A stretch of DNA of 64,000 bases. Source: Pseudonocardia sp. SCN 73-27. Its GTDB lineage: Bacteria > Actinomycetota > Actinomycetes > Mycobacteriales > Pseudonocardiaceae. This document shows, piece by piece, positions 29,531 to 61,911 of the stretch. The position numbers and the translations under genes were made by a program. Each line of letters begins with the position of its first letter. The stretch's first letter is position 1. A model generated the notes under the pieces. The model ran no database searches and was not told the DNA's origin. It saw only the letters and a list, made by a program, of their open reading frames with translations. The stretch is from assembly GCA_001725415.1 (NCBI GenBank), contig MEGH01000003.1:104185-168184 (forward strand), given 5' to 3'.

Positions 29531-29557
29531 TCGCTCAAACTATTAACCTAGTTATGG
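29531..29557. promoter_or_regulatory. Island operator copy: TCGCTC-N5-ATTAACCT
   Basis: TCGCTC at 29531-29536, five bases, then ATTAACCT at 29542-29549, followed by AGTTATGG. The P450 promoter carries the same TCGCTC-N5-ATTAACCT arrangement (59546-59564, minus strand). The AGTTATGG tail matches the site at 50647. It is upstream of the MHS permease gene. Confidence 0.5.
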
Positions 29558-29928
29558 GCTGCGTCAAGAACCTCGTGCCGGGGAGGCTCGGGTGATCCGG
29601 ATATGGACCCAGCCGGTCTCCGACTGTGGGAGCGAGACATCAACAGGCACAACAGGTTCTGTGGCGGAGGGGGAACCGCGCCTGGCGCTCGACCCATTGA
29701 TCCGACGTGGCCAGCTCGCCCATCGCGAATGACGACTGTCCCCGTTGGACGGCATGCCAGAATGCGTTACGGCAATGACGTCGAAATCGTGTCGACCAGG
29801 TGGTCGAGGGTACCGGCGGCGCGCTCTCCGATTCTGGACGTGCCGCCAGGATGGTGACCCTCTGGAGCGGACGTGCACTCGACAAGAGGTTGGCGCCGGC
29901 CGCCTTTCGACAAGTGGTCGGGGGCAGA

Positions 29929-29967
29929 GTCTACACCCGTAGACAGGAGTGGTCTACGCTCGTCTAC
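29929..29967. promoter_or_regulatory. GTCTAC-N4-GTAGAC operator plus two GTCTAC repeats
   Basis: An inverted GTCTAC-ACCC-GTAGAC (29929-29944) is followed by direct GTCTAC copies at 29952 and 29962, the last touching the TetR ATG at 29968. TACGCT at 29955 would be a -10 box placing the start of transcription at the ATG (leaderless). This is the expected layout for autorepression by the TetR protein. Confidence 0.55.
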
Positions 29968-30549
29968 ATGAAATCCGAGGGAGTCGTGCAACGCCGCCGC
30001 GACGCCGCCGCGACCCGGGCCGCCATCCTCGAGGCAGCCATCGCAGAGTTCACCGAGCACGGCTACGCGGGCGCCGGGGTCCGCCAGATCGCGGAGCGTG
30101 CGGGCGTCACGGCGATGCTGATCAATCGCTACTTCGACTCCAAGGAGCGCCTGTTCGCAGAAGCTGTGGACACCTCTTTCGCGCCGCCCACCGTCGTCAC
30201 CGACAGCGGCGAGGACCGGCTCGCGGCCACTATCGGCACCGTGCTCGCCCAGCGAACCGGGCTGTCCGCCGGGCAACTCGACCCGTTCCTGCTCACTTTG
30301 CGGTCAGCGGGCGATGCCCGTGCAGCCGAGATCGTCCGGCACGGTATCGAGACGCACGTCGGCGCGCGCCTTGCCAGCCGGCTCGCCGGCTCGGAGGCGG
30401 AGGCCCGAGCTCAGATCGCCCTGGCGCTGATCGCAGGTGTCTGGCTGATGCGACGGGTGATCGGGCTGCCGGCTCTTGCGGCAATGGCCGACGAGACCCT
30501 TGCGGGCTTGCTGGGCGCCATGTTCGACGCCGTCCTCGACCCGGACTAG
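29968..30549 (+). CDS. TetR-family transcriptional regulator
   Basis: The protein has 193 residues from the ATG at 29968; the frame is open further up, but that stretch overlaps the operator sites. The N-terminal HTH reads RDAAATRAAILEAAIAEFTEHGYAGAGVRQIAERAGVTAMLINRYFDSKERLFAEAV, which is classic TetR. The C-terminal ligand domain (about 80-190) is Ala/Leu-rich helices. The likely operator is GTCTAC-N4-GTAGAC, also found near 35301. It lies between the permease and the lyase gene and may control both. Confidence 0.9.
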   Translation: MKSEGVVQRRRDAAATRAAILEAAIAEFTEHGYAGAGVRQIAERAGVTAMLINRYFDSKERLFAEAVDTSFAPPTVVTDSGEDRLAATIGTVLAQRTGLSAGQLDPFLLTLRSAGDARAAEIVRHGIETHVGARLASRLAGSEAEARAQIALALIAGVWLMRRVIGLPALAAMADETLAGLLGAMFDAVLDPD

Positions 30550-30605
30550 CCCCGGTGCGACGTCGCGACCGTCTGAGACTGGCTGCCGGCTCCGATTGAC
30601 ACTAT

Positions 30606-30620
30606 CATTATCCTTGATGG
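30606..30620. promoter_or_regulatory. Operator-like element CATTATCCTTGATGG
   Basis: It lies 82 bp upstream of the lyase start, 5 bp after a TTGACA hexamer (30596-30601). It matches the sites at 50647 (CATTAGCCTAGTCATGG) and 29541 (TATTAACCTAGTTATGG) except for a two-base gap. It could be a regulator site or part of the promoter. Confidence 0.4.
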
Positions 30621-30702
30621 CTGCGCGCAGTCGTCACCGCGCACTCAGTCCGGGCCGACCGGCAGCACATCGCGCCTGCCCCGACCGCTCAGGAGTCCAA
30701 CG

Positions 30703-31566
30703 ATGGACACGTCGATCCGCCCGGAGTTCCGGCGCAAGCTGAACTCCGGCACCACACTCTTCGCGCCGCATTGCCCCGATCCCCTGGTCGCCAGGCTGTG
30801 CGAGCGGCTCGGGTACGACGCCGGCTACCTCGGCGGCGCCGGGCTTGGGCACCGCCTCGCCGTGTCCGAGGCGCTGCTCAACGTCAGCGACCTCGCGTCC
30901 GCCACCTCCGCCGTACGGCTTCGGTCGGACCTGCCGCTGGTCGTCGATGGCGGGGTCGGGTTCGGCGACGCGATCCACGTCCAGCGCATGGTCTGGGAGC
31001 TCGAGCGGGCCGGCGCGAGCGCGATCGAGCTGGAGGACCAGGTTGCGCCGAAGCGCGCCAGCCACCACCGCGACATCGAGCACCTCGTTTCAACGGCGGA
31101 GATGGTGGGCAAGGTCCGGTTCGCCGTCGAGGCCAGGACCGATCCCGACCTGGTGCTGATCGCCCGCACCGGGGCGGTGCAGAACGAGGATTTCGACAGT
31201 GCGATCACCCGGCTCGAAGCCTACCTCGACGCCGGCGCCGACGCCGTGATGTTGCTGCCGGCCGACGAGGACCAGCTCGCTGAGGCCCCCCGACGCCTCG
31301 GTGCGCCCCTCGCCACACTCACGTCGTTCGACAGCCAGTCGCAGCGGCGTTGGCAGGAGCTCGGATACGCCCTGGTGATCGACCCGATCACCGGCGAGAC
31401 CGCCGCGTTCGACGCACTGCGCCGGGCCTATGACCGCCAGCGCCGCGGCGAGCCCAGCGGTACCGGCCCCGCGACGGCCATGGCCCTCTTCCGCGAGCTC
31501 CACGAACTCGCCCGCTTCGAGGAGCTCTACGAGGTCGAGCGGGCGACCACCGAGCCGGCCGGCTGA
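30703..31566 (+). CDS. Isocitrate lyase/PEP mutase superfamily protein
   Basis: The protein has 287 residues with CAGGAG upstream of the ATG. The TIM-barrel family motifs are VVDGGVGFGDAI (the metal-binding D-x-D/GYG loop, slightly changed), IELEDQVAPKRASHH (the ED-x-x-PKR-x-x-H loop; the usual lyase Cys of KRCGH is Ser here) and VEARTDPDLVLIARTGA. Relatives include 2-methylisocitrate lyase, oxaloacetate decarboxylase, PEP mutase and carboxyvinyl-carboxyphosphonate phosphorylmutase. Loss of the Cys argues against a plain (methyl)isocitrate lyase and for a hydrolase or decarboxylase-like reaction on a 2-keto or dicarboxylic acid. A decayed SDR and an EthD gene follow. Confidence 0.8.
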   Translation: MDTSIRPEFRRKLNSGTTLFAPHCPDPLVARLCERLGYDAGYLGGAGLGHRLAVSEALLNVSDLASATSAVRLRSDLPLVVDGGVGFGDAIHVQRMVWELERAGASAIELEDQVAPKRASHHRDIEHLVSTAEMVGKVRFAVEARTDPDLVLIARTGAVQNEDFDSAITRLEAYLDAGADAVMLLPADEDQLAEAPRRLGAPLATLTSFDSQSQRRWQELGYALVIDPITGETAAFDALRRAYDRQRRGEPSGTGPATAMALFRELHELARFEELYEVERATTEPAG

Positions 31567-31599
31567 GGCCTGTACGGGAGGACGAAGCATGAGCGATGA

Positions 31600-31970
31600 G
31601 ATTGGTCCACAGCCCTCGCGGGCCTGGTCGCAATCGTGACGATCGCGGGGCCCGGCATCGGCCGCACCGAGACGCTCGCCCTGGCCGCCGCAACGGCGCT
31701 TCGCCCGTCGGCTGGTGATGGCCGAACGCGTCGTCGACCGCCGTCGGGACGTTCGGCCGCCTGGACATCGTCGTCCAGAACGCGGGCATCGTCCGGCACC
31801 AAGACGATCGCGGAGATCGGCGAGGCCGGCTTGGGCGTCACTGATCGCGACGAACCTCACGGGGCCTTCCGGGCGGGCGGGCGCGTGCTCGCCACCGTCC
31901 TGCCAGTCGACGGCGGCCTCGAGATTCTGTACGGCCCCGAACCCCGAGAACACGACCGGGACCCGGTCGA
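31600..31970 (+). pseudogene. Decayed short-chain dehydrogenase
   Basis: Successive frames show SDR pieces in the right order. LAGLVAIVTIAGPGIGRTET resembles the NAD-binding TGAGxGIG start, with the first Gly lost. GTFGRLDIVVQNAGIVRH is the NAG strand. TIAEIGEA and LIATNLTGP belong to helix 4 and helix 5. VLPVDGGLEILYG is the C-terminal VDGG. The catalytic Ser-Tyr-Lys part is missing, and at least two frame changes and a large internal deletion are needed. It sits between the lyase and EthD genes, and its C-terminal frame runs on into EthD. Confidence 0.6.
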
Positions 31971-31983
31971 AGAGGAGGACACG

Positions 31984-32742
31984 ATGTCGCCCGAGGCATC
32001 CGCGACAGCCGAGCCTGTCATCAAGCTGGCCTACCTGGCCCGGCGCAACCCGGCGCTGACCGTCGAGGAGTTCGCGCTTCGCTGGCGCCAGCACTCGCTG
32101 CTCGCCGGCTCGATGCCGTCGATCCGTCCCGGCGTCGTGCAGACCGCGCACTGCCTCAACCACTACGACCGAACCCTGTTCGCACGGGCCACGCTCGAGT
32201 ACGACGGTGTCAATTTCCTGACTCTGACCAGCGCTGACATTGCGCTCTCGATGTGGCAGTCCGACGAGGCGCTGGAGCTGCTGCAGCCCGACGAGCTGGC
32301 AACCTTCTCCACCTACGCCCGCCACTTCACCCTCACCACCCACGAGCACCTGGCCTCCCCCGGCCCGATGCGTCATCACAACCTGATCTTCTTCCTCAAG
32401 CGCGACCACCGCACCAGCCCCGCCGACTTCACCGCGACGCTGGTCGAGGCCCAGGCCGAGGTGGCCGGCGGCCGACGCGCCGTCGTCAACGTCGTGGTGG
32501 ATCGCCAGCCCGGGTACAACTTCGACGCGGTGACTGAGCTCTGGTTCGACAGCCCTGACGAGCTGCGCGACGTCGCCGGCTCGCCAGTGTTCGCCGACAC
32601 CTACCTCGGCCGCCGCGCGGAGATCTGCGACGAGATGCGGACGGTCGCGATGACGACTCGGCTGAGCCACGCGCGGCCCGCGATCAGCGAGCAGACGGCA
32701 GTCGACCGGCCGGTGCGCGCTACAGCCACGGCCATGGGCTGA
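31984..32742 (+). CDS. EthD-domain protein (two EthD-like repeats)
   Basis: The protein has 252 residues. The ATG at 31984 follows GAGGAGG; the upstream open frame is SDR debris. The first EthD repeat is IKLAYLARRNPALTVEEFALRWRQHSLLA (about 13-120). The second is LIFFLKRDHRTSPADFTATLVEAQAEVAG with DAVTELWFDSPDELRDV (about 135-240). EthD ferredoxin-like domains occur in catabolic clusters for ethers, aromatics and polyketides, usually as small accessory or cyclase-like enzymes; the reaction is unknown. A frameshifted relative lies at 50660, and the two share the C-terminal VAMxTRLSHARPA. Confidence 0.75.
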   Translation: MSPEASATAEPVIKLAYLARRNPALTVEEFALRWRQHSLLAGSMPSIRPGVVQTAHCLNHYDRTLFARATLEYDGVNFLTLTSADIALSMWQSDEALELLQPDELATFSTYARHFTLTTHEHLASPGPMRHHNLIFFLKRDHRTSPADFTATLVEAQAEVAGGRRAVVNVVVDRQPGYNFDAVTELWFDSPDELRDVAGSPVFADTYLGRRAEICDEMRTVAMTTRLSHARPAISEQTAVDRPVRATATAMG

Positions 32743-32749
32743 GTGGTCG

Positions 32750-33874
32750 GTGAGCCAGCCGGGACCCGCCGCCGCCCCGTTGCGGGTCGGCCTCGTCGGG
32801 GCGAACTGGGGCCTGACCCACCTGGCGGCGTGGCGGGCGGTGCCCGGCGTCGACGTCGTCGCGGTCTGCACCGGTCACCGGGACAGCGCCGCGCGGGTCG
32901 CGGCCGAGCACCGCGTCGGCACCGCCTACTGGGATGCGGCCGACCTGATCGCCGACCCGCGCCTCGATGTCGTGGACGTGACCATCCGCCCGGCCCTACG
33001 GACGGAGATGGCGCCGGCCGCGATACGAGCCGGGAAGCACCTGATGGTGCCGCTGCCGTTCGCGACCGACGATCGGGCCGCCCGCGCCCTCGACGAGCTC
33101 GCCCGCAGACATGGCGTCGTCGCGGTTGTCGAGAACCTGCACCGCCATGAGCCTGCGCTGCGCCAGCTGCGCGACCTGGTGACAGCCGGTGAGCTCGGCC
33201 GGGTGAGCATGATACGTGGGCACGTCCGCAGCGACTTGCTGCTCAACCCGCCCGACCCGTGGCCGTACGAGTGGATCCTCGACCCGGTCAACCACGCCAG
33301 CGCGCTGCGCAACTTCGGCGCCCACCTGCTGCACGCCGTCGTCGACCTCGCCGGGCCGGTCGCTGCCGTGGCCGCGACGCTGCGCCGCGATACCCGCGAG
33401 GTCCGGCTCGTCGGAGGCCGACGCGTCGGCTGCGGGGTCGTCGACGGCGCCGCTCTGTTGCTCCGGACCGTGGCGGGCGCCGACGTCGCGCTCGACGTGT
33501 CGTGGTGCGCGCCCGCGGCGGAGGGGTTCGCCGTCGAGGTGGTCGGCGACCGCGGCCGGGCCCGCGTCACCGCGGAGCGGCTGGGCCCGCAGCACGCTCG
33601 TCTGGAACGGGCGGGCCCCAGCGACGCCGCGATGACACCGGCCGTCATCGAGCAGCGGTACCGGACGATCCCCGGCGTGCCGGGCGTGGAGCCCGACCCG
33701 CTGCGGCCGCAGCTGTTCCCCATGGTCGCCATGTGCCAGAGGTTCGCCACCGCCGTGCGTGGGGACGGCGATGGCGCCGCTCCGACGTTCGCCGAGGCCG
33801 CGCATGTGTCGGCCGTGGTGGAGTCCGCCTACGACGCCGACGCACGGCGCACGTGGGTCGACGTTCCCCGCTGA
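32750..33874 (+). CDS. Gfo/Idh/MocA-family oxidoreductase-like protein
   Basis: The protein has 374 residues from a GTG 7 bp after the EthD stop. The N-terminal Rossmann domain begins LRVGLVGANWGLTHLAAWRAVPGVDVVAVCTG and reads on to LDVVDVTIRPALR. The usual EKP motif that holds the catalytic Lys reads VPLPFATDD instead, so activity is uncertain. The C-terminal domain (about 130-370) keeps VVENLHRHEPALRQLRDLVTAGELG and NFGAHLLHAVVDLAG. Members oxidise or epimerise sugars, inositols or biliverdin with NAD(P). Here it may act on an alcohol or keto acid in the island pathway. Confidence 0.8.
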   Translation: MSQPGPAAAPLRVGLVGANWGLTHLAAWRAVPGVDVVAVCTGHRDSAARVAAEHRVGTAYWDAADLIADPRLDVVDVTIRPALRTEMAPAAIRAGKHLMVPLPFATDDRAARALDELARRHGVVAVVENLHRHEPALRQLRDLVTAGELGRVSMIRGHVRSDLLLNPPDPWPYEWILDPVNHASALRNFGAHLLHAVVDLAGPVAAVAATLRRDTREVRLVGGRRVGCGVVDGAALLLRTVAGADVALDVSWCAPAAEGFAVEVVGDRGRARVTAERLGPQHARLERAGPSDAAMTPAVIEQRYRTIPGVPGVEPDPLRPQLFPMVAMCQRFATAVRGDGDGAAPTFAEAAHVSAVVESAYDADARRTWVDVPR

Positions 33875-34387
33875 CCGGGGCCGGGCCCAGGCGGACCAGC
33901 CGTTCGGCGGCGTCGGCGAGGGAGCGTCGCCCGCCTGCGACGGCGCAGTGAAAGCAACAAGCGCCCGGCGCAGACCGTCGCGACCGGAAGTCCGAGGCCG
34001 ACCACGATCGGTCCCGACACTGACCCACCACCAACGCCGTACAACTCCGGCGACCCCACCACGAGGCCGAGAGGCTCGGTGGGGCGCCGCGTCGGCGACG
34101 GCCCCGGGCTCCCTCCGAGGCCGACGTTGCCGGAGCGGCCAGAACCGAGTGGAGGCAGGAGAGCTCCGGCCGCGACGACGCAGTCGCCGTGAACCGCTCC
34201 TCGAACCCGCCGCGGTGTGGCCACTTCGGGCCGACCGAGTGGGCTGAAGGGTCGAGTCGTTCTCCGGCGAGCATCCGCACCGCGTCAGCCAACCTGGTGA
34301 TGTTCCACGTCGAGAGAACGAGTCTCCGATGCTGCAGCCGCAGCTATCGCCAGCTCGGGGACGTTTCTCCACGAGGCCCGTCAGCCG
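33875..34387. other. 513-bp convergent intergenic region, no gene seen
   Basis: It lies between the Gfo/Idh gene and a convergent SDR. Open frames on both strands are Arg/Pro-rich in the manner of non-coding GC-rich DNA, and none has a recognisable domain. It may hold decayed sequence, but I cannot identify it. No convincing terminator stem was found. Confidence 0.4.
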
Positions 34388-35330: not shown

Positions 35331-35515
35331 GCCCGCCCATCGACTCCGTCCTCCGAGCGGGGGGACGAGGCGCGAGCGCCTCGCCGGCTCGCCCGGTATC
35401 GGTGTGTGCGTGCGGCGAGGCGCTCCCCTGCAGGTCGTCGCCCGGTCCACTCCCTCTTCCTCTCCACGCAGCTACTGTCGATCGACGGCAACGATTGCCC
35501 CCAACCGTCAAAGAA

Positions 35516-35534
35516 GATAATGTTAGGAGCAACC
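35516..35534. promoter_or_regulatory. Island operator copy upstream of TcuA-like gene
   Basis: GATAATGTTAGGAGCAACC; its complement reads TTGCTCCTAACATTATC and matches the CGCTCCTAAAATTAACC sites at 59546, 61797 and 61892. It lies 22-40 bases before the ATG at 35556. Confidence 0.5.
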
Positions 35535-35555: not shown

Positions 35556-37001
35556 ATGGACGTCGTAGTCCTCGGATGCGGTGTCGCTGGGCTCTCTGCG
35601 GCGGTGTCGGCCGCGGAGCACGGCGCACGGGTCATCGTTCTTGAACGAGCCCCGGCGCGGGACCGAGGCGGGAACTCCAGGTACACCAGCGCCTGGATGC
35701 GCATGTCCAGCCCTGACGATGTGTCCGACGACCTCGTCGACCTACTCGTCGAGCGTGGTCACGGTGCCATCCCGCCGGACTATGTCGACACGACCACTCG
35801 CGACGTCGCCGCCTGGCCGCCCAACGTGCGGTCCTACCCGTTCAACGACCCCGAAGTGATCGACGCACTCGTCACGAACGCGCCGCCCACCATGCACTGG
35901 CTCGCCGGCCACGGAATCGGGTTCACTTACTACGAGCCTGCTCTCCTCGAGACGGGCTCGGTGCGGATGGGGCCGAGCGGCGGCGGGCTCGCGATCGTCG
36001 AGACGCTCGTCGGCGTGGCAGAACGGCTGGGCGTCGAGGTTCAGTACGAGACGACCGGACGTGGACTGCTGTTCGACGACACGGGGGCGATCCGTGGCGT
36101 GCGGTGCTGGTCGCGTCACCGCGGAGGATTCGACATCGAGGCGCCCAACGTTGTCGTCGCCTCCGGCGGATTCCAGGGGAACGTCGAGATGATGACCCGC
36201 TATGTAGGACGTCATGCACACTTCGCCCGCCCGGTGTCCGCTGGTGGTCGCTACAACAAGGGCGAAGGTATCGACATGATGCTTGCGGCAGGGGCTGCAC
36301 CAGCCGGGCAGTACGACATGTTCCACGCCTGCCCCATGGACCCCCGGTCCACCCATCCCGAGCCGATGGTCGGGGTCGTCAATTTCGGCATCCTCGTCGA
36401 CGACCGAGGCCATCGGTTTCTCGACGAGGGCACCGACCGCTACGAGTTGTTCTACGACGAGGTCGCCTGGACCGTCATGCGCAGGCGCAACGGTCTGGCG
36501 TGGTTCTTGTTCGACCAGCGACTGCTGGACGTTCCGAACGTGCGGTCGCGAATCCACACGGACGTCGACCCGGTCAGGGGTTCGTCGATCGCCGATCTCG
36601 CCGCGCGAATCGGCGTGCCGACGGGCGCCCTCGAACGCACCGTACGCGCCTACAATGCGGCTGCCGGACCGCCCGGGCCCTATGACGTCAGCCGGCTCGA
36701 CGGCGTCGGCACCGAGGGGCTCGTCCCGCCGAAGTCCAACTGGGCCCGGCCACTGGACGAGTCGGATCTCTACGCCTACCCGATCATGTGTGGCAGCACG
36801 TTCACCTGCGGCGGGGTGAAGATCACCAAGCATGCCGAGGTCGTGAACAACGACGGCGACGTCATCCCCGGCCTCTTCGCCGCGGGAGAGACAACCGGTC
36901 TCTACTACAACCTCTATGTCGGTGCGACGTCCGTGCTTCGGGGGCTGGTCTTCGGCCGCGAGGCCGGGCGCCGCATCGGGGAGCTGCGCGCGAAGCGCTG
37001 A
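35556..37001 (+). CDS. FAD-binding dehydrogenase (TcuA/fumarate reductase flavoprotein family)
   Basis: The protein has about 481 residues from the ATG at 35556 (GGAGGT upstream); a GTG at 35550 is also possible. It has the FAD motif VVVLGCGVAGLSAAVSAAEHGARVIVLERAP, the GGNSRYTSAWMR loop, VVASGGFQGN, FNFGILVDDRGHRFLDEG-like segments and the C-terminal LFAAGETTGLYYNLYVGATSVLRGLVFGREAGR. This is the FAD_binding_2 family (tricarballylate dehydrogenase TcuA, fumarate reductase, 3-ketosteroid dehydrogenase). It should dehydrogenate next to a carboxylate or ketone. It heads the long plus-strand operon and carries its own island operator. Confidence 0.82.
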   Translation: MDVVVLGCGVAGLSAAVSAAEHGARVIVLERAPARDRGGNSRYTSAWMRMSSPDDVSDDLVDLLVERGHGAIPPDYVDTTTRDVAAWPPNVRSYPFNDPEVIDALVTNAPPTMHWLAGHGIGFTYYEPALLETGSVRMGPSGGGLAIVETLVGVAERLGVEVQYETTGRGLLFDDTGAIRGVRCWSRHRGGFDIEAPNVVVASGGFQGNVEMMTRYVGRHAHFARPVSAGGRYNKGEGIDMMLAAGAAPAGQYDMFHACPMDPRSTHPEPMVGVVNFGILVDDRGHRFLDEGTDRYELFYDEVAWTVMRRRNGLAWFLFDQRLLDVPNVRSRIHTDVDPVRGSSIADLAARIGVPTGALERTVRAYNAAAGPPGPYDVSRLDGVGTEGLVPPKSNWARPLDESDLYAYPIMCGSTFTCGGVKITKHAEVVNNDGDVIPGLFAAGETTGLYYNLYVGATSVLRGLVFGREAGRRIGELRAKR

Positions 37002-37963: not shown

Positions 37964-40086
37964 GCGACGGCCTCGCGGCGATGCTTGCCCCCGGGTCGGT
38001 GGCCGTCCTGGGTGCTTCCAGCGATCCGCACGCCTTCGGAGGCAAGCCGATCCGCTACTTGCGGGAGTTCGGTTATCGGGGCTCCGTCTACCCTGTTGCG
38101 GCGAACGCCGCAACGGTGCAGGGCTTCCGCGCCTACCGGTCGGTCGCGGACCTACCCGAAGTGCCAGACGTCGTCCTGTTCACACTGCCAGGTCCCGAGA
38201 TGGCCGCCGCTGTGACCGAGTGCGCCGCGCTCGGCGTTCCGGCCGGCATTGTGTTCGCGACGGGCATCGGCGACGAAGACGCCCATCACGACCTGCGGCG
38301 GCGGATGCGCGACGCCGCGGCGCAGGGGATGCGTCTGGCCGGCCCCAACGCTCAGGCCGTATCCAACTTCGCGACCGGCGCCGTGTTGACGCCCTGGGGC
38401 GTCTCGGACGAAGAGCCTGCGGCTGACGGGCCTGTCGCGGTGATCAGCCAGAGCGGCGCGATGGTGTCGATGATCTACGGCGTGCTGCGTCGCCGTGGAG
38501 TCGGTGTCCGCTATGCGCACGGCATCGGCGCTGCTCTCGACGTGTCGGTGGCCGAGCTGACCGCCGGGGTCTTGTGGGACCCCGGTGTGCGGCTGGTGTT
38601 GCTCTACCTGGAGGACCTCTCCGATCCGGCGGGCCTGGAGCGAGCCGCTGCACTCGCCGCGAGCCAGGGGGTTCCCGTCGTGGCGCTGACCGGTGGGCGT
38701 ACTACCGCAGGTCAGAAGGCCGCCCTGTCCCATTCGGGGGCCCTCGCGACCGAGACCCGTGTGACCGACGCCTTCTTCCGGCGCATCGGCGTCCGGCGGG
38801 TCACCAGCAGCAGCGAGCTGATAGCGGCCACCGACCTGTATCTGCACGCACCCGTCCCACGTGGCCGACGGTTGGCCGTCGTCAGCAACTCCGGCGCCGC
38901 GTGCGTACTCGCAGTCGATGCTGCTGCGGACCACCGTCTCCCTCTGGCCCGCCCGGCTGCCGAGACGGTCGCACGACTCCACGAGCTGCTGCCGGCGTCA
39001 ACCATGAGGGACAACCCCGTCGACATCATGGGGCTCCCGATCGCCGACCCAGGGCTGCTGGCAAAGGTCTTGGCGCCGTTGGCCGACGACCCCGACTCGG
39101 ACGTCTGCCTCCTGGCCCTCCCGGTCGCAGGACCTGCCTACGACGTCGGTCGGTTCGTCGAGGATGCGGCCTCGTTCGTCACCTCTGCGGGGAAGCCGCT
39201 CGTCGTCGCGGCGCCACAGCCCGACATCCGCGCACGGTTCCGCCGCGCGGGAGTGCCGGCCTTCGTCGACGAGACCGCCGCCGTCGACGCGATCTGTGCG
39301 GTGCTCGACCATCACAGCGAGATTGCCGCCGCCCGGCTTCGCCCACCCCGCCCACGCCGCGTCGCGATCGCTCACACCAACGAACTGGTTCTCGACGAGG
39401 ACGAGAGCCTTCGACACGTGCAGTCCCTCGGCCTGCCCGTCGTGGCACGCGTGCTCTGCGCGGACCCCGGCTCGGCGGAGGCCGCCTTCGAGCAGCTCGG
39501 AGGTGGCCCCGTCGTGGTCAAGGGCTGCACCGCGGAGGTGACGCACAAGTCCGACCTCGGGCTCGTGCGGCTGGGGGTCCGCACCCGATCACAGGCCGGC
39601 GACGCAGCCCGTGAGGTGCTCGCCCGGATGCACGACCGCGGCCTCTCCGCACCACAGGTGCTGGTCGCGTCCATGGTCGACGGCCTCCGAGAGGTGATGG
39701 TCGGGGCCCATGTCGATGCGACCTTCGGGCCCGTCGTGCTGGTCGGGAACGGCGGCAAACACGTGGAGACGCTGCCGGACATCGCAGTCCTGCTCCCCCC
39801 GTTCGCGGGACAAGACGTCGAGGCCGCGATCCGTCGGCTCGCCTGCGCACCGCTGCTGGACGGCGTGCGCGGCGAACCTGCGGTCGACGTCAGCGGCTGG
39901 GTCGACATCGCCGTGCGGCTGGGTGCGGCGCTCGTCGAGCCGGGCTCGCAGCTCCTCGCTGTGGACGTCAATCCACTGCTGCTCGGCCGGGACGCAGGAG
40001 CCGGCGTCGCGGTCGACGCGACGGTGGTGCTCGGCGCAGCTCGTCATTGCGCGCACGCCCCTCCCGACAGGGCGCGAGGCGTTTAG
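37960..40086 (+). CDS. NDP-forming acyl-CoA synthetase (acetate-CoA ligase family)
   Basis: The protein has 708 residues. Domains in order: CoA-binding (about 5-130, VAVLGASSDPHAFGGKPIRYL), succinyl-CoA-ligase-like (about 140-450) with the phospho-His loop AALSHSGALA (His about 258), and C-terminal ATP-grasp (about 470-700) with VVVKGCTAEVTHKSDLGLVRLGV and VDVNPLLLG. It joins an acid to CoA with ATP through a phosphohistidine intermediate, giving ADP and Pi. It is coupled to the mycofactocin SDR, so the acid is probably a pathway intermediate. The importer genes follow 150 bp downstream. Confidence 0.87.
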   Translation: MSDGLAAMLAPGSVAVLGASSDPHAFGGKPIRYLREFGYRGSVYPVAANAATVQGFRAYRSVADLPEVPDVVLFTLPGPEMAAAVTECAALGVPAGIVFATGIGDEDAHHDLRRRMRDAAAQGMRLAGPNAQAVSNFATGAVLTPWGVSDEEPAADGPVAVISQSGAMVSMIYGVLRRRGVGVRYAHGIGAALDVSVAELTAGVLWDPGVRLVLLYLEDLSDPAGLERAAALAASQGVPVVALTGGRTTAGQKAALSHSGALATETRVTDAFFRRIGVRRVTSSSELIAATDLYLHAPVPRGRRLAVVSNSGAACVLAVDAAADHRLPLARPAAETVARLHELLPASTMRDNPVDIMGLPIADPGLLAKVLAPLADDPDSDVCLLALPVAGPAYDVGRFVEDAASFVTSAGKPLVVAAPQPDIRARFRRAGVPAFVDETAAVDAICAVLDHHSEIAAARLRPPRPRRVAIAHTNELVLDEDESLRHVQSLGLPVVARVLCADPGSAEAAFEQLGGGPVVVKGCTAEVTHKSDLGLVRLGVRTRSQAGDAAREVLARMHDRGLSAPQVLVASMVDGLREVMVGAHVDATFGPVVLVGNGGKHVETLPDIAVLLPPFAGQDVEAAIRRLACAPLLDGVRGEPAVDVSGWVDIAVRLGAALVEPGSQLLAVDVNPLLLGRDAGAGVAVDATVVLGAARHCAHAPPDRARGV

Positions 40087-40103
40087 CCGCAACGGATGAA
40101 CAC

Positions 40104-40156
40104 ACGGCACAGCAGTACGGCAGTCCGGAACAGCACGACAGCACGGCATGACGGCA
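40104..40156 (+). repeat. Four ACGGCA repeats in a leader region
   Basis: ACGGCA occurs at 40104, 40117, 40143 and 40151, within an AC/AG-rich stretch unlike the flanking coding DNA, between the acyl-CoA synthetase and the importer binding-protein gene. Its function is unknown; it may be low-complexity slippage. Confidence 0.3.
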
Positions 40157-40234
40157 CGTGAACCCGACCGCTCCGCAGAACCAGGCAACACGCCTGCCCG
40201 TCCACCGACGCCGGTACCTCGAAAGGGCACAACG

Positions 40235-41509
40235 ATGCGTCTCACCGCCGGAAGTCACCACGGCCGCACAGGCCACCGGGTCGCATCCGCGATCGCGATC
40301 CTCGGCTTGGCCGTCGCCGCCGCCGCCTGTGGTAGCCCATCGAGCTCCACGAGCGGCGCCACCGGCGCCACGATCAAGCTAGGACTCGTCAGCTCGATCA
40401 CCGGGCCCTTGGCCTCGACCTTCGGGCCCGACGTTGAAGCCGGCTTCAACGCCCGAGTATCCCGCGAGAACGATGCCGGCGGCGTCAACGGTCGCAAGCT
40501 CGAGGTGACCGTCGCCGACGACACCTCGACAGCCCCGGGCGCGGTCACCGCCGTGCAGAACCTCATGCGACAGGACGTCTTCGCGGTCGGTTCGTGGAGT
40601 GCCCTGATGTTCAACGCCTACAAGCCGCTCAACCAGGCCGGGATCCCCTTGGTCGGAGGCGCGTTCGGGGCCCCGCAGTTCGGTGATCCCAGCCTGACCA
40701 ACCAGTTCTCGGTCTTCGGACCGCTCGATCCGGCATTCCCGGTCTACGACAGCTACGGCAAGCTGCTGAAGTCGCTCGGCGTCACCAAGTTGGCGAGCCT
40801 CGGATACGGCACCGTCCCGTCGTCGAAGAACTCGGCCACCGCGTTCGCCGCATCCGCCAAGGCCGCGGGCATCGCCATCTGCTACGAGAACTACGGACTG
40901 CCGTCCGGCGGTGTGGACTTCACCCCGGTCGCCCTCGCGATCAAGAACGCCGGCTGCGACGGCATCTACGCGTCGATGGTCTCGTCGTCGCAGCTCGCGC
41001 TGGCGCAATCCGTCCGCGATTCCGGCGTGACCCTCAAGGGCATGGTCTCCACGCAGGGCTACGAACAGCGGACCCTCGACGACCCACGCGTCCGGGAAGC
41101 CGCGCAGGGCATCACCTTCGTCAACCCCATGAGCCTCGTGGCCGAGCCGAACGCCGGGATGAAGACCATGCTGGGCGACCTGCAGAAGTACGCGAACTCA
41201 ACAGGGATCCCCTCCTTCGGCGAGTTCGGCGGATGGCTCACCGCGGACGCGCTCATCGCCGGCCTCGAGGCGGCCGGAGCCAACCCGACCCGAGAGTCGT
41301 TCATCGACGGACTGCGCAAGGTCAGCGACTACGACGCCGGCGGTGTTCTCGCCGGACCGACGGACTTCACCGTCGGCCAGATCGGCAAGGGCGACAGCAT
41401 CCTGTCCGGCTCGCGGTGCTGGTTCGCCCTCACACTCGTCGGCGACAGCTTCACACCGGTCAACGGTACGACCCCGTTCTGCGGTGACCCGGTCGCGGGC
41501 GCGAAGTGA
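40235..41509 (+). CDS. Branched-chain-type ABC importer, substrate-binding lipoprotein (system 1)
   Basis: The protein has 424 residues; the ATG at 40235 follows GAAAGGG. Lipobox AAAC (about 33) after a hydrophobic helix, then the Peripla_BP_6 domain: IKLGLVSSITGPLASTFGPDVEAGFNARV, REND-AGGVNGRKLEVTVADD, and GWLTADALIAGLEAAG near the end. Such LivJ-like proteins bind amino acids, but in catabolic clusters they often bind aromatic or alicyclic acids, urea or amides. It is the first gene of a complete four-gene import system reaching 45210. Confidence 0.87.
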   Translation: MRLTAGSHHGRTGHRVASAIAILGLAVAAAACGSPSSSTSGATGATIKLGLVSSITGPLASTFGPDVEAGFNARVSRENDAGGVNGRKLEVTVADDTSTAPGAVTAVQNLMRQDVFAVGSWSALMFNAYKPLNQAGIPLVGGAFGAPQFGDPSLTNQFSVFGPLDPAFPVYDSYGKLLKSLGVTKLASLGYGTVPSSKNSATAFAASAKAAGIAICYENYGLPSGGVDFTPVALAIKNAGCDGIYASMVSSSQLALAQSVRDSGVTLKGMVSTQGYEQRTLDDPRVREAAQGITFVNPMSLVAEPNAGMKTMLGDLQKYANSTGIPSFGEFGGWLTADALIAGLEAAGANPTRESFIDGLRKVSDYDAGGVLAGPTDFTVGQIGKGDSILSGSRCWFALTLVGDSFTPVNGTTPFCGDPVAGAK

Positions 41510-56983: not shown

Positions 56984-57008
56984 CTGACAGGCGCATGAGC
57001 GCTGTCAG
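56984..57008. terminator. Hairpin between alcohol dehydrogenase and importer genes
   Basis: CTGACAGGCGC (56984-56994) pairs with GCGCTGTCAG (56999-57008) with a single bulged base and a 4-base loop ATGA. It lies inside the minus-strand gene series and may be a partial terminator or mRNA stabiliser that sets importer levels. Confidence 0.45.
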
Positions 57009-57069
57009 AGGTCTGGGTTGTAGTGATCGGGGCTACCGTTCCGAGGTGCCAGGCCCGGGTCCGGGGATG

Positions 57070-58182
57070 TCAGCGACCCTCGGCCGACGTCTCGGGAACG
57101 ACGGACACATGGACCGCATCCGAGTGGGTGAGCATCTCGATCCCCGCGCGCACATCGCTCAACGGCACGGTGTGTGAATGCAGCAGCTCCAGCGGAAGGC
57201 TGCCCGAGCCGAGCAGCCGCAGCGCCTGGCCGTAGCCCCACGACTCCACGCTCACGACACCACGGACATCTGCCGCCTTGAGCACGAGGGCGTCGGCGTC
57301 GACACCGGCCATGTCACGCCCGCCCTTCAAGCCTGCGACGACGACCACGCCACCGGGGCGCACGAGTGCGATCGCGTCGGAGATCGACGAGACGGCGTGT
57401 GGAGTGGTGTCCACGACGCGGTCCGCCTCACCACCGAGTGCCTCGCGCACGGCCGTCACGACGTCGGCCGAACCAGCAGGCAAGCTGTCGACCTCGACGG
57501 TGGCGTCGGCGCCGAGCTGGGTCGCGATGTCGAGCTTGTGCCGGTCACGGGCGAGTCCGGTGACGACGACACGGTCGGCGCCGGCAGCGCGGGCTGCCAC
57601 GACGCACGCGAGCCCACGTTGGCCGCAGCCCAGCACCACGACGGCGTCCCCCGCGACCATGCCCCCCCGCCGAACGGTCCAGTCGAAGCCGGCACCGAGC
57701 GGGTTGAAGAGTGTCGCGACCTCGGCGGATATGCCGCTGGGGACGGGATGCACCCGACTGTTCGGGCGCAGTACGAGGTACTCGGCGAAGCCTCCCCACA
57801 GCCCGGCACCGAAGGTCGTGGGGGTGAACCCGTAGGAGAAGCGGTTGCGGCAGAACTTCACCAGCCCGCTGGTGCACCGGTCGCAGACGTGACAGGGCAC
57901 GACAGACTCCACTGCGACCAAGCTGCCCTCGTCGACACCCCAGAGCCTGCGCGCCTCGGGCCCGATCTCGACGATCCGCCCCACCGGCTCGTGGCCCGGG
58001 ATGACCGGGTAGGCCGACCATCCGCTCTTTGCCAGTCTGCCGTCGAGCTGCTCCTTGTCGCTGCCGCAGACACCGGTCGCCTCGATCCGCAGCAACGCCT
58101 CGCCGTCGCCGATGACGGGAACCTCGAGCTCCTGCTCGTCGAGCTCACCCGGTCCGAGCTGGACCATCGCCCGCGCACGCAT
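57070..58182 (-). CDS. Zinc-dependent medium-chain alcohol dehydrogenase
   Basis: The protein has 370 residues. Catalytic zinc ligands: Cys in GVCGSDKEQ (about 39) and GHEPVGR (about 64). Structural zinc cysteines are CHVCDRCTSGLVKFC (about 98-112). The Rossmann domain has VVVLGCGQRGLACVVAARAAG (about 176). It is in the threonine/glucose/sorbitol dehydrogenase branch of the MDR superfamily and oxidises a secondary or primary alcohol with NAD(P). It lies 74 bp after the P450 gene, so it may oxidise the P450's hydroxylated product. Confidence 0.88.
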   Translation of the reverse strand: MRARAMVQLGPGELDEQELEVPVIGDGEALLRIEATGVCGSDKEQLDGRLAKSGWSAYPVIPGHEPVGRIVEIGPEARRLWGVDEGSLVAVESVVPCHVCDRCTSGLVKFCRNRFSYGFTPTTFGAGLWGGFAEYLVLRPNSRVHPVPSGISAEVATLFNPLGAGFDWTVRRGGMVAGDAVVVLGCGQRGLACVVAARAAGADRVVVTGLARDRHKLDIATQLGADATVEVDSLPAGSADVVTAVREALGGEADRVVDTTPHAVSSISDAIALVRPGGVVVVAGLKGGRDMAGVDADALVLKAADVRGVVSVESWGYGQALRLLGSGSLPLELLHSHTVPLSDVRAGIEMLTHSDAVHVSVVPETSAEGR

Positions 58183-58256
58183 ATGTGGTCTCCTTCCGGC
58201 GTCGACGCGCCGGTCGCGGCGCCTGGGCGCCGGGAATCGTTGAGTGTTGCGACGCC

Positions 58257-59489
58257 TCAGAGCGCCGAAAAGCGGACGGGGAACGACTCGTACCGGTCGT
58301 GCACACTTTCCGGACGTACCGGCGGATTGTCAGGATCGCGTTCCACCCCCGCGCGCAGCAGCGCCCCGAGTAGCAGCGCGAGCGTGCCGTCTCTGGACTC
58401 CGAGCGCCGGCCGGCGGGAGTACCGAGCACCAACGGCTTTCCCAGGCACTGGTGTCGGCCTGCGCCGAAGCTCAGCCCGTAGGGGAACGTTCCTTCGGCG
58501 ACGGTCCGGTACGGATTGAACTTGTCGACCTCACCGCCGTATGCCTCCTCGTCCATGTTCGCGTGGAACTTGTCGACCAGGACGATCTGCCCGGGCTCCA
58601 CCGGCGTGCCGTCCGGCATCGTCGTCGCCTCCGCAGCCGCGCGCATCAGGACATGCCGGCCGGGGTGCAGGCGAAGGGTCTCCATTCCCACGATACGAAG
58701 GAACGCCGGATCAGTCAGCCGCTCATGAGCCTCGGGATGATCAGGCAGCCAGTCTGTCAGCTCAGCGACGGCGTGCGTCACCGCTGTCGCCGTCGTGAAA
58801 GCTGCCGCTGTCATGTGCAGCAGTGTTTCCTTGAGGATCTCGTCGTCGGACCACGTCAAGGTCGTGTCGTTCATGATGACCGAGATCAGATCGTCGTCGG
58901 GCAGGGCGCCCGCGGCATGTTGGTCTTGGCGCTTGCGGAGCGCAGGTTCGACGAAGTCGGCCCAGAACTCCTTCTTGCACGCCATCGCGTCGCGCATGAC
59001 CTCGTCGTGATCGCGGGTCGTCCACTGGATGAGGATGCCGTCGCCGAGCCGGGCGACGAGCCCGGTCAGCTGTTCCAGTCGCCCGGCGTCGATGTCGTCG
59101 AGCCCTACGAGCGCGGCGGAGATGCGTAGCGTCATCCGTCGCATGAGCGGGATGAGGTCGGCTCGTGGGACGCCGTCCGCCGACGGATGTGCCGCGATCG
59201 CGGCCATCTCGTCCTCGACGACGTTGGCCAGCACGGACTGCTCGTACTTCGAAAGCTGGGTGGCCCCGAACAGCGCACCCTCGATCCGCTTCAGATGGCG
59301 ATGCCGTTCGCCGTCCGAGCCGAGCAGCGTGCCGTCGAGCAGAGCTGCGTTCTCGTGGTACACGTCGACGCTGAACGAGTTCGACCGCAGCACGCTGGCG
59401 CCGTCGGCGTATGTCGCCGTGCGAGGAACCGTGGGGTCCAGTGGCAACGGGACGCGCTCCGGATCGTGAGCGGGGCATGCGTTGGACAC
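58257..59489 (-). CDS. Cytochrome P450
   Basis: The protein has 410 residues. The GTG at 59489 has a strong GAGGAGG; longer open frame upstream is unsupported. ExxR is METLRLHPGRHVLM (K-helix), and the heme loop FPYGLSFGAGRHQCLGKPL has its Cys ligand near 348. The I-helix reads HMTAAAFTTATAV, lacking the usual acid before the Thr. After the heme Cys there is an unusual TPAGRRSESRDGTLALLLGALL in place of the typical LARLE helix. It hydroxylates an unactivated carbon using O2 and a ferredoxin system, neither partner being in the window. The promoter carries the island operator. Confidence 0.88.
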   Translation of the reverse strand: MSNACPAHDPERVPLPLDPTVPRTATYADGASVLRSNSFSVDVYHENAALLDGTLLGSDGERHRHLKRIEGALFGATQLSKYEQSVLANVVEDEMAAIAAHPSADGVPRADLIPLMRRMTLRISAALVGLDDIDAGRLEQLTGLVARLGDGILIQWTTRDHDEVMRDAMACKKEFWADFVEPALRKRQDQHAAGALPDDDLISVIMNDTTLTWSDDEILKETLLHMTAAAFTTATAVTHAVAELTDWLPDHPEAHERLTDPAFLRIVGMETLRLHPGRHVLMRAAAEATTMPDGTPVEPGQIVLVDKFHANMDEEAYGGEVDKFNPYRTVAEGTFPYGLSFGAGRHQCLGKPLVLGTPAGRRSESRDGTLALLLGALLRAGVERDPDNPPVRPESVHDRYESFPVRFSAL

Positions 59490-59544
59490 GGGATCCTCCT
59501 CGATACCGGTCGGGGCGAGTCGTGCTACAACGCCCACCTCACTA

Positions 59545-59564
59545 GAGGTTAATTTTAGGAGCGA
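59545..59564. promoter_or_regulatory. Island operator in the P450 promoter
   Basis: On the minus strand TCGCTC-CTAAA-ATTAACCT. TTGACG, 17 bp upstream of TAACCT on the same strand, can serve as -35 and -10, so the site overlaps spacer and -10. It lies 56-75 bases before the P450 GTG. Compare 29531, 61797 and 61892. Confidence 0.6.
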
Positions 59565-59652
59565 TACACGTCAAGCACGACCACCCGCGAGCTTTCGACA
59601 GCGTCGTGGTCGCGGGGTCCTAATGCCCTCGGACGTCGGCCTGGTAGGCATT

Positions 59653-59671
59653 GAGGTTAATGGTAGGTTCG
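59653..59671. promoter_or_regulatory. Island operator variant upstream of the GntR gene
   Basis: GAGGTTAATGGTAGGTTCG, matching the P450 site (GAGGTTAATTTTAGGAGCG, same strand) at 15 of 19 bases. It lies 53-71 bases before the GntR-family GTG start and suggests autoregulation. Confidence 0.55.
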
Positions 59672-59723
59672 CACTGTGTCGGAGCTGTGCCTGCAAGTGT
59701 GGGCCGGGCGAAGGTGAGGCGCC

Positions 59724-60572
59724 GTGACGATCTTCGGGGCGGACGAGGACCTGACCGCGGTGGGCGCACCGGAAGTGAATGCCGGCCAATTGTCCCCGGG
59801 CGCATCCCCGGTCGATCGGCTCCCCAGCAGGCGGCCGGCTGCGCGCAGGTCGCAGAAGGCCGCCCTCTCCATCGCCCAGCGCATCGTCGACGACATCACC
59901 GACGGTGATCTTGACCGCGGAACCAAGTTGGCCAGCGAACGTGAGATGCTTGCCCGCTTCGAGGCCGGGCGCGGCACCCTTCGGGAGTCCTTGCGTTTCC
60001 TCGAGATGAACGGTGTCTTGACCGTCAAGCCCGGCCCACGCGGCGGTCCGGTCGTCTCCGCCCGCTGCGGGGAGGATTTCGCTCAGATACTCGGCCTGTT
60101 CATGCAGATGCGCGGCGTGCCGTTCCGGGCCTTGGTCAGCGCGCGCGAGATCCTGGAACCCGAGCTGGCTGCCCTCGCGGCCCTGTCCGCGACCAAGACC
60201 GACGACGCCCGCATCAAGGATTCCATCGACGGCATGCGCGCCTTCCTCGACGACGACCAGAACTTCCTCGCAGAGAACGACAGGTTCCATGTCGCTGTCG
60301 CCCGCGCATCGGGCAACGACCTGTTCGCTCTTCTGATCTCGTCGCTTCACGCGATCACAGACGGGGTGCCCCTTGGACTGACCTACTCCCGCTCTCGCCG
60401 TGAGTCCGTGGCGCGCTCCCACACCGAGATCTATGACGCCGTACACGCCCGCGATGCAGAAGGCGCGCGCTGGGCGACGCGCAAACACTTGCGCCATTTC
60501 CGCAGCCGGGTCCAGGCCGACGTACCTGGAGCCATGGACCGGCCGGTCCGTTGGCGTGACCTGCTGACCTGA
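59724..60572 (+). CDS. GntR/FadR-family transcriptional regulator (FCD domain)
   Basis: The protein has 282 residues from a GTG with AAGGTGAGG upstream. It has an unusual 45-residue N-terminal extension, then a winged helix (ALSIAQRIVDDITDGDLDRGTKLASEREMLARFEAGRGTLRESLRFLEMNGVLTVKPGPRGGPVV), then the FCD effector domain (about 120-270) with the metal-site residues EILEPELAA, ENDRFHVAVARASGN and SHTEIYDAV. FadR-like proteins bind acyl-CoA or organic acids. The nearest candidate targets carry CGCTCCTAAAATTAACC sites at 59545, 59653, 61797 and 61892, making it the leading candidate for the island regulator. Confidence 0.9.
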   Translation: MTIFGADEDLTAVGAPEVNAGQLSPGASPVDRLPSRRPAARRSQKAALSIAQRIVDDITDGDLDRGTKLASEREMLARFEAGRGTLRESLRFLEMNGVLTVKPGPRGGPVVSARCGEDFAQILGLFMQMRGVPFRALVSAREILEPELAALAALSATKTDDARIKDSIDGMRAFLDDDQNFLAENDRFHVAVARASGNDLFALLISSLHAITDGVPLGLTYSRSRRESVARSHTEIYDAVHARDAEGARWATRKHLRHFRSRVQADVPGAMDRPVRWRDLLT

Positions 60573-60593
60573 CCTGGTTGGGCAATTCCCGGT

Positions 60594-60626
60594 TGCGGCT
60601 GCCCGGGGCCGACCCGGGCAGCCGCA
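60594..60626. terminator. Strong bidirectional terminator, 14-bp stem
   Basis: GCGGCTGCCCGGG (60595-60607) and CCCGGGCAGCCGC (60613-60625) are perfect arms with a 5-base loop, extended by one T-A pair. It lies between the convergent GntR and LLM monooxygenase genes. Confidence 0.8.
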
Positions 60627-60635
60627 GTGAGGCAT

Positions 60636-61769
60636 TCAGGACTTGCGCAGGCCAGCGTCGACCATCAACGGGACGATCTGTTCATTGAACTGCTCGATGC
60701 CGGCCGCATAGTCGAGCCAGCTCAAGGCGACCCCATCCACGCCGATGGCCCGGAGCTCCGCAAGCTTCTCGACGATCATCTCAGGCGTACCGATGAGGGG
60801 GTAAGCACCCCAGGACGCGGTCAACCCGCGTGCCATCGCCCGATACGCATCGGTTGGCCACGACTTTGCCACGCCACCGATCAGCTGTTCGATCAGATTG
60901 TCGGCAGCGACGACATCGCCGAGTTCGTCCACGAAGTGGTCGTGGAAGCGATTGGCCTCCGCCTCGGTGTCGGCACACACCACGTACGCGGTGGAGATGA
61001 CGCCGATCTCCCGTCCGTGTCCTTCTGCGAGTCGCCGCAGGTCTGCACCCATCTTCGCCAGCGGTCCGATCTCGGGATAGGCCTGGAACCCGAAGTCCGC
61101 GTGCCGCGCTGCGAAGGCCATCCCCTCGGGGGACAGGCCCGCCTGAACAATCACCGGCTGGTGAACGGGCATCGGCGACAGCGACGCGTCTTTGGCTGAG
61201 TAATGATCACCGCTGAAGTTGAACGGCTCGGGCTCCGACCACAACCGGCGGACAAGCGTCGTCCACTCGTCCGCCATCGCGTACCGCGCGTCGTGATCAG
61301 GGATCTTCTTACCGAACATGGCCATCTCGGCCTCGTTCCACCCCGCGACGATGTTCAGACCGAACCGGCCGCCTCCGATGTTGTCGATCGTCGCACCCTG
61401 CTTTGCCGCGACCAGCGGTTCGAAGAGTAATGAATGCGCGGTCGCGAGGACGTGAATGTGCTCGGTCACCGCGGTGAGACCGGCCGCCCAGGTGAAGACC
61501 TCGTATTGGGCTCCGACCGGGTCGCTCGCCCCGCCCAGACCCCTCCACCGCCCGAGGGGGATCAGAAACTCCCAACCAGACCTGTCCGCTGCCTGTGCAA
61601 GTGCGACCTGCTCCTGCCAGGTCGGGACGATGCGGTTGTGCGGATAGGTACTGAGCGAGGGCCCGCCTTTGCAGTTCATGGCGAACAGGCCGATCTTCAT
61701 CGCGTTCTCGTTGCGAAGCGGGCCACCCATGGGTGGGGCCTTCGATTCGGCCGGTGCGGACGACGTCAT
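60636..61769 (-). CDS. LLM-class flavin-dependent monooxygenase
   Basis: The protein has 377 residues of the bacterial-luciferase-like TIM barrel. MKIGLFAMNCKGGPSLST (strand 1), WQEQVALAQAADRSGWEFLIPLGRWRG, HIHVLATAHSLLFEPLVAAKQGATIDNIGGGRFGLNIVAGWNEAEMAMFG and HQPVIVQAGLSPEGMAFAARHADFGF are hallmarks of the SfnG/NtaA/RutA-type group. It uses FMNH2 from a separate reductase and O2 to oxygenate, often cleaving a C-S, C-N or ring bond. A second ATG (KIGLF) is 23 codons in. An island operator lies 29 bp upstream. Confidence 0.87.
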   Translation of the reverse strand: MTSSAPAESKAPPMGGPLRNENAMKIGLFAMNCKGGPSLSTYPHNRIVPTWQEQVALAQAADRSGWEFLIPLGRWRGLGGASDPVGAQYEVFTWAAGLTAVTEHIHVLATAHSLLFEPLVAAKQGATIDNIGGGRFGLNIVAGWNEAEMAMFGKKIPDHDARYAMADEWTTLVRRLWSEPEPFNFSGDHYSAKDASLSPMPVHQPVIVQAGLSPEGMAFAARHADFGFQAYPEIGPLAKMGADLRRLAEGHGREIGVISTAYVVCADTEAEANRFHDHFVDELGDVVAADNLIEQLIGGVAKSWPTDAYRAMARGLTASWGAYPLIGTPEMIVEKLAELRAIGVDGVALSWLDYAAGIEQFNEQIVPLMVDAGLRKS

Positions 61770-61796
61770 GGTGGTCTCCCTCGCCTCCGTGAACTG

Positions 61797-61816
61797 TCGC
61801 TCCTATAATTAGAGCG
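61797..61816. promoter_or_regulatory. Island operator, near-palindromic, before the LLM gene
   Basis: TCGCTCCTATAATTAGAGCG: the outer CGCTC and GAGCG are inverted, and the TCGCTC-N5-ATTA spacing matches 29531 and 59564. It lies 28-47 bases upstream of the LLM monooxygenase start (61769, minus strand). Confidence 0.6.
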
Positions 61817-61892
61817 CCCGGCAGATTGAAGCATGAAGCGGCCTCGCGCTCAACGCCTTCCCCACATGTGCTGTTCCGAGCCGTGTACTTTA

Positions 61893-61911
61893 CGCTCCTA
61901 AGATAGACCTG
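61893..61911. promoter_or_regulatory. Island operator before SDR at 61938
   Basis: CGCTCCTAAGATAGACCTG; it matches the minus-strand P450 site CGCTCCTAAAATTAACCTC at 16 of 19 bases. It lies 27-45 bases upstream of the ATG at 61938. With 61797 it makes the two divergent genes share two sites about 95 bp apart. Confidence 0.6.

Follow-up and report, generated by a model that had tools for sequence, protein, structure and literature searches.

Predicted operators of an FCD-type GntR regulator across a catabolic island of Pseudonocardia sp. SCN 73-27

Catabolic genes in a 64,000-nucleotide stretch of Pseudonocardia sp. SCN 73-27 (GCA_001725415.1, contig MEGH01000003.1, positions 104,185 to 168,184; the whole stretch is hereafter the window, and its contig is C3 in our numbering) are preceded by short, closely similar intergenic sites. 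Judged from sequence and distribution, these sites are probably operators bound by an FCD-type GntR protein, the product of the gene at 59724-60572, and this protein would govern one regulon over a catabolic island. A preliminary description of the window had listed six of the sites and attributed them to this regulator. That attribution is supported by the association of the motif with a clade of GntR proteins, by near-exact motif copies near GntR orthologues, and by variant clusters in which the roughly 40 kb searched around the GntR gene showed no relatives of the two competing regulators, MarR and TetR.

The six sites all exist, none more than 2 bases from the coordinates first given (1-based), and they align gap-free in a single register. 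A window scan with a matrix built from the six added a seventh site at 30597-30614. Applied to eight regions at a threshold of at least 15 bits, this six-site matrix found 32 sites, including the six training sites: 16 in the own genome (11 on C3, 4 on C13 and 1 on C8), 8 in Amycolatopsis eburnea, 4 in Streptomyces brasiliensis and 4 in A. taiwanensis. They are spread over six of the eight regions, those of P. halophobica and P. terrae having none at this threshold, and 0 of the 32 fall inside called genes. The 32-site consensus is YGCTCCTANNATTANCCT, a motif of 18-19 bp that is mostly asymmetric, with G2, A8 and T12 invariant in all 32 sites. Its left half, GCTCCTA, is common to all lineages, while the right half, TTANCCT, varies. 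The 18-mer quoted in the preliminary description is exact at 59546, but has three mismatches at 61893 and more at the other four sites, and a window search at three mismatches finds only the first two. The distance to a start codon, given there as 20-75 bases for most sites, is 19-57 bases for five of the six and 106 for the site of the metabolite/H+ symporter (MHS) permease. Gene calls and start codons are computed; a codon-usage gene caller, which may overlook small genes, sets three starts further downstream and so places sites at 68, 103 and 190 bases.

The motif is very rare. Exact YGCTCCTANNATTANCCT occurs in 1 of 397 genomes of the order, the own genome, in two copies, and in none of the 396 others (only two of which are of the same genus). 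At up to one mismatch the own genome, with five copies, is once more the only one to have it among 62 of the genus; the 61 others have none. In a looser comparison, CGCTCCTANNATTAACCT at up to three mismatches matches the own genome (6.95 Mb) at 13 places, against 4 for the reversed control; all but two of these, 11 in number, are on C3 or C13, and the remaining two are isolated. Such genome counts need no matrix, but the patterns were written from the sites. A second matrix was built from 16 sites of three other species; as those sites had themselves been found with the window matrix, the test is reciprocal. The 16-site matrix returns seven window matches of at least 15 bits, namely the six sites and 30597 on the plus strand, and these are its top seven, at 17.6-29.4 bits; the eighth scores 10.0. 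Nothing in about 150 kb of control sequence scores above 12.2 with it. When the window was shuffled 100 times with its dinucleotides preserved, at most 2 shuffles had any match at or above 15 bits (on average 0.02 matches per shuffle, never more than 1, highest score 17.8), and 200 shuffles of the intergenic stretches give 0. Chance matches in AT-rich DNA are thus ruled out by the pattern counts together with the matrix and shuffle test, which bears out the earlier judgement that the sites are improbable by chance. The six-site matrix finds 1 match in 149,674 control bases, drawn from eight own-genome stretches of which some are far parts of the scanned contigs. As a separate observation, CGCTCCTGTTATTGCCCT is repeated in two genomes of the order among the matches listed, three times about 220 bases apart in one (G090:C82:16308-16765) and twice 80 bases apart in the other (G063:C1:3219014-3219111).

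The predicted regulon is larger than the span first given for it. Further sites lie on C3 at 179023, 179201, 186641 and 205867, and others on C13 and C8, so that the regulon, as predicted, reaches past the window to an operon of Rieske, LigB and LigY-like genes. The own genome is a draft of 99 contigs; the C8 site is close to the end of its contig, as is one of those on C13. Outside it, exact YGCTCCTANNATTANCCT copies number 6 in A. eburnea, 3 in S. brasiliensis and 2 in A. taiwanensis, all on the contig of the GntR orthologue and at most 25 kb from it. Sites also recur at the same genes: the divergent P450-GntR pair carries sites on own C3, own C13 and in A. eburnea, and the Rieske gene has one on own C3 (179023), in A. 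eburnea (305904) and in S. brasiliensis (39566). Orthologues of the MHS permease, the short-chain dehydrogenase (SDR) and the phosphoenolpyruvate (PEP) mutase carry sites across genera as well, the PEP-mutase via an inferred operon; the S. brasiliensis PEP-mutase orthologue (39632-40495, minus strand) has no site before it. In 11 orthologous site pairs, hand-picked among the sites that the scans had given, 158 of 198 motif positions agree (80%), compared with 171 of 550 (31%) in the 25-base flanks. The low identity of the flanks rules out inherited likeness of whole intergenic regions. On C13, at about 6851-7302 (L048), a broken GntR copy has as its neighbours a P450 copy, for which the caller gives a single open gene, and two predicted operator sites. 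What is left of this GntR copy is two pieces that differ in frame, one corresponding to residues 11-94 and the other to residues 204-277.

By its domains the window GntR protein is a regular FCD GntR, with an N-terminal GntR winged helix (PF00392, E 2.5e-11, 43.5 bits against a cut-off of 27) and a C-terminal FCD domain (PF07729, E 3.4e-24, 86.1 bits against 24.3). For the metal site of FCD domains we looked for three His and one Asp or Asn: Asn185, Asp186, His189, His209 and His233 are conserved in nine aligned members, and His209 does not align with any His of LldR. Close relatives of the window protein are few. Scanning 84,980 genomes, one for each species, with a peptide pattern gave six loci, in A. 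eburnea, S. brasiliensis, A. taiwanensis, P. halophobica, P. terrae and P. autotrophica. When 99 relatives were searched with the GntR protein, identities above 42% appeared, among the matches listed, only in P. terrae (G031) and P. autotrophica (G025). The own genome holds two intact paralogues, at C8:217743 (67%) and C3:204968 (66%), besides the broken C13 copy. The clade so delimited is 58-70% identical to the window protein, and in eight members the winged helix-turn-helix is 73-80% identical to it. In the clusters examined, the motif or its left half accompanies the clade: 8 of 11 clade GntR genes are preceded by a site, five by full motifs (the broken C13 copy included) and three by half-site pairs. 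More distant homologues (31-42% identity, 27 loci) have no full motif of at least 15 bits in 27 of 27, the best scoring 12.7. One A. eburnea cluster (L095, C55:317896-319483) has two clade GntR genes tail to tail. Two 35% homologues (L032 near 1338 and L037 near 1339) have GGTCGTATCATCATCAT 5' of the gene, which has the TATCAT core in common with the motif and may be a diverged operator.

The half-site pairs belong to P. halophobica, P. autotrophica and P. terrae, in which two inverted copies of GCTCCTA precede the GntR gene. All three also carry CGCTCCTATGATTGTTAC, at a distance of about 7 kb and upstream of a gene weakly (29%) similar to MHS permeases; the core of CGCTCCTATGATTGTTAC has one exact copy in each genome. 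Most other genes around the GntR gene differ in these species, and the half-site is nonetheless kept. P. halophobica and P. autotrophica are near-identical here, and the variant clusters, being closely related, count as one or two independent observations. A search pattern for the variant sites, GCTCCTAYRATNSTKRCG, was discarded: it gave one exact match per variant genome, and elsewhere two-mismatch matches no commoner than in the control.

We favour the GntR protein as the binder, an assignment well supported by these comparisons, which show association. The clusters were located by searching with GntR, so that its occurrence in every one follows from the search itself; the informative part is that the motif is also there and almost nowhere else. 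Several results nevertheless weigh against this assignment. The looser pattern YGSTCCYANNATTANCCT at up to two mismatches is no commoner than its reversed control (15 against 14 in the own genome), and lies at or below the control in six genomes with a GntR orthologue; the signal resides in near-exact copies and in their clustering and position. At 0-1 mismatch the 18-mer is absent from the P. halophobica, P. autotrophica and P. terrae genomes, which have half-site variants only. No site precedes the two intact own paralogues on C8 and C3 or the second A. eburnea GntR gene. The two own paralogues could share the operator; upstream of them, at C8:218534 and C3:204938, is a common block, CTACAGTTATCAT.GTTG..CCTACTAGGAAGG, which does not fit the motif and may be a different operator or promoter. 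Two homologues of about 40% identity (L017 and L018) have the same GRGTLRE recognition helix and lack the motif, which makes this helix insufficient by itself as a predictor of the motif. The TKGT and ACMA boxes of the FadR subfamily are missing from the 32-site consensus. Finally, four of the clusters also contain MarR and TetR genes, and this conservation makes both genuine rivals to GntR, which is in all.

The MarR protein at 26115 could bind the motif, the GntR gene being merely a target, in the way that DdvR, of MarR type, acts on ligXa in Sphingobium SYK-6, where it represses ligXa and ddvT (from part of PMC6874591). Its orthologues sit in four motif-carrying clusters, and a search of 59 relatives gave, among the matches listed, no MarR homologue above 45%. 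However, tblastn at E 1e-3 over about 40 kb around the GntR genes of the three variant species found GntR but no relative of this MarR or of the TetR protein, despite the half-site variants there. The MarR matches with the best E-values are 36% identical in the P. autotrophica genome and 34% in P. terrae, and the MarR-family gene 14 kb from the P. halophobica GntR is a different one (37% identical to the MarR of A. eburnea over 79 residues). We consider MarR an improbable binder. The TetR protein at 29968 likewise has orthologues in four clusters with the motif, and the 29532 site faces its gene. Homologues of 54-56% identity in two genomes (G016 and G008) are accompanied there by one two-mismatch motif match each and none closer, which, with the missing TetR match around the three Pseudonocardia GntR genes, leaves TetR a highly improbable binder. 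On these comparisons both candidates appear weakened, and the GntR protein remains the preferred one.

Some of the sites overlap promoter-like boxes. In 8 of the 32, TTGA[CA] stands 16-17 bases from a TANNNT hexamer within the motif in the forward direction, compared with 1 of 32 in reverse, and in 1000 shuffles of the upstream bases the forward overlap averages 0.23 and never exceeds 3. An example is the 59546 site, which with a TTGACG 11 bases upstream reads TTGACG-N17-TAACCT, directed at the P450 gene. The conservation of TTANCCT may partly be owed to the promoter. The motif could even be a promoter class and no operator, with an extended -10, a conserved spacer and a special sigma factor, and the correctly spaced forward boxes in those eight sites speak for this. 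We regard it as very improbable: 24 of the 32 sites have no forward -35, the motif follows a GntR clade, and the C8 site is a perfect palindrome, CGCTCCTATCATAGGAGCG, with a near-palindrome at the LLM-class monooxygenase site, the sole other palindromic match in the own genome at up to three mismatches. The forward hexamer, moreover, has two places in the motif, position 13 (six sites) and position 7 (two sites), and these two registers rule out a fixed promoter element. A strict palindrome was in turn rejected as the general operator, since just two own-genome places match at up to three mismatches, each on both strands.

With the -10 at two motif positions, the predicted operator lies over the -10 region in differing registers. 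This is what a promoter-occluding repressor would be expected to show, and repression by occlusion of the -10 appears the likeliest mode of action. Some FCD proteins activate, and some sites lie at least 100 bases from a start codon, which would suit an activator. Where promoter boxes can be recognised, however, the sites lie over the -10, a usual place of a repressor, and the FCD repressor Atu1419 also binds over -10 boxes (PMC7797058, in part). Activation by GntR is in our view unlikely. Under repression, GntR would, without substrate, sit on GCTCCTANNAT and a weaker second half, cover the -10 of a sigma-70-like promoter and block RNA polymerase. An acid of the pathway would bind the FCD domain and release GntR, and the permease, P450, LLM monooxygenase, dehydrogenases and meta-cleavage genes would come on together; through the 59654 site GntR would repress itself. 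We infer GntR binding of the motif, repression, effector and substrate class from the sequence features described here.

The putative targets and regulators in the window are collected in Table 1. At its right edge the window is crossed by a conserved row of minus-strand genes (C3:167103-178948), which A. eburnea and S. brasiliensis share. In order of transcription it comprises a Rieske oxygenase (partial LigXa_C), a second LigY-like amidohydrolase, an acyl-coenzyme A (CoA) dehydrogenase, an ADP-forming CoA ligase, a class II aldolase, a LigB-type dioxygenase, three RraA-like genes, one further gene and the LigY-like gene at 62919-63917. By homology, LigY structures are the best matches of both amidohydrolases, the second at E 1.4e-80. 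The Rieske protein has a Rieske domain and a partial LigXa_C match, with a putative phthalate 4,5-dioxygenase as its best PDB match, and the LigB family member best matches protocatechuate 4,5-dioxygenase (E 1.8e-13). By these homologies the row is made up like an aromatic meta-cleavage pathway, and the island would serve the catabolism of carboxylated, perhaps methoxylated or biaryl-type, aromatics. We rejected the P450, LLM and permease homologies as guides to the substrate, being too generic to fix it.

Table 1 Predicted operator sites, regulators and putative target genes in the window (window coordinates).
Feature	Position	Strand	Remarks
MarR-family regulator, rival binder	26115..26585	+	Conserved in four clusters
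MHS-type permease, predicted target	28065..29426	-	Metabolite/H+ symporter; below the model's curated cut-off
Predicted operator site CGCTCAAACTATTAACCT	29532..29549	+	Between MHS permease gene (-) and TetR gene (+)
TetR-family regulator, rival binder or target	29968..30549	+	
Predicted seventh site TGACACTATCATTATCCT	30597..30614	+	89 bases 5' of PEP-mutase/isocitrate-lyase-like gene; absent from the preliminary description
PEP-mutase/methylisocitrate-lyase-like gene, predicted target	30703..31566	+	
Predicted operator site TGCTCCTAACATTATCTT	35514..35531	-	Directly 5' of TcuA-like flavoprotein gene (+); SDR gene (-) on opposite side
TcuA-like FAD flavoprotein, predicted target	35556..37001	+	
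Cytochrome P450, predicted target	58257..59489	-	Pfam p450 on longer open reading frame; start from gene caller
Predicted operator site CGCTCCTAAAATTAACCT	59546..59563	-	5' of P450 gene
Predicted operator site CGAACCTACCATTAACCT	59654..59671	-	53 bases 5' of GntR start; candidate autoregulatory site
FCD-type GntR regulator, likely binder	59724..60572	+	Pfam GntR and FCD; orthologues
LLM-class monooxygenase (SfnG/RutA-like), predicted target	60636..61769	-	
Predicted near-palindromic operator CGCTCCTATAATTAGAGCG	61798..61816	+	5' of LLM monooxygenase gene
Predicted operator site CGCTCCTAAGATAGACCT	61893..61910	+	28 bases 5' of SDR gene ATG
Short-chain dehydrogenase, predicted target	61938..62702	+	
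LigY-like amidohydrolase	62919..63917	-	Last gene of conserved row; best PDB match LigY, E 1.3e-85

An FCD regulator over a catabolic island is a well-known, ordinary kind of system. Like the present GntR as we read it, Atu1419 of Agrobacterium fabrum (VanR group) is an FCD-type GntR repressor of an aromatic-acid catabolic region, and its palindromes lie over the -10 boxes of its targets and between the -10 and -35 of its own gene (PMC7797058, in part). Its operator, ATGTATACAT, differs from the 18-19 bp, mostly asymmetric motif described here, which is without GT/AC boxes. Operators of the FadR subfamily typically have TKGT and ACMA boxes 2-3 bases apart, with published exceptions such as the direct repeats TGGTATAW of NanR and the TTATMKATAA of BioR (from part of PMC4494728). 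NanR (Escherichia coli) and BioR thus resemble our case as FadR-subfamily regulators with operators off the consensus, but differ in sequence and half-site arrangement, and NanR is only distantly related to the window protein (E 1.4e-10). The genes themselves recall the 5,5'-dehydrodivanillate (DDVA) cluster of Sphingobium SYK-6 (ligXa, ligZ, ligY, ddvK, ddvR), in which Rieske, LigB-type, LigY-like and permease genes are likewise clustered (from parts of PMC6874591 and PMC12997858). That cluster is MarR-regulated (PMC6874591, in part), and the present one has P450, LLM, RraA-like and CoA-ligase genes in addition. Neither the regulon nor the motif was recognised in literature searches, judged on titles and the starts of abstracts among the matches listed, which is no proof of absence from print; a search for the 8-mer CGCTCCTA gave no relevant title among the matches listed.

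A broader reading, which we put forward tentatively as possible rather than probable, is that this GntR clade reads a non-FadR-type operator in which the strong half GCTCCTANNAT is variously paired: with a degenerate TTANCCT half doubling as the -10, in a tight palindrome CGCTCCTATNATAGGAGCG, or as two inverted halves about 15 bases apart. The regulator would then have moved between unrelated actinobacterial catabolic clusters and the half-site with it. The predicted GntR operators would give a concrete regulator-operator pair for a large uncharacterised set of aromatic-catabolic genes in actinobacteria, including LigB, LigY and Rieske genes as in Sphingobium SYK-6 (PMC6874591, in part). Near-exact copies of the 18-mer are so rare that they can help to delimit the regulon and to find unlinked members, and the atypical operator would be a useful case of a change in DNA specificity among FCD GntR proteins.

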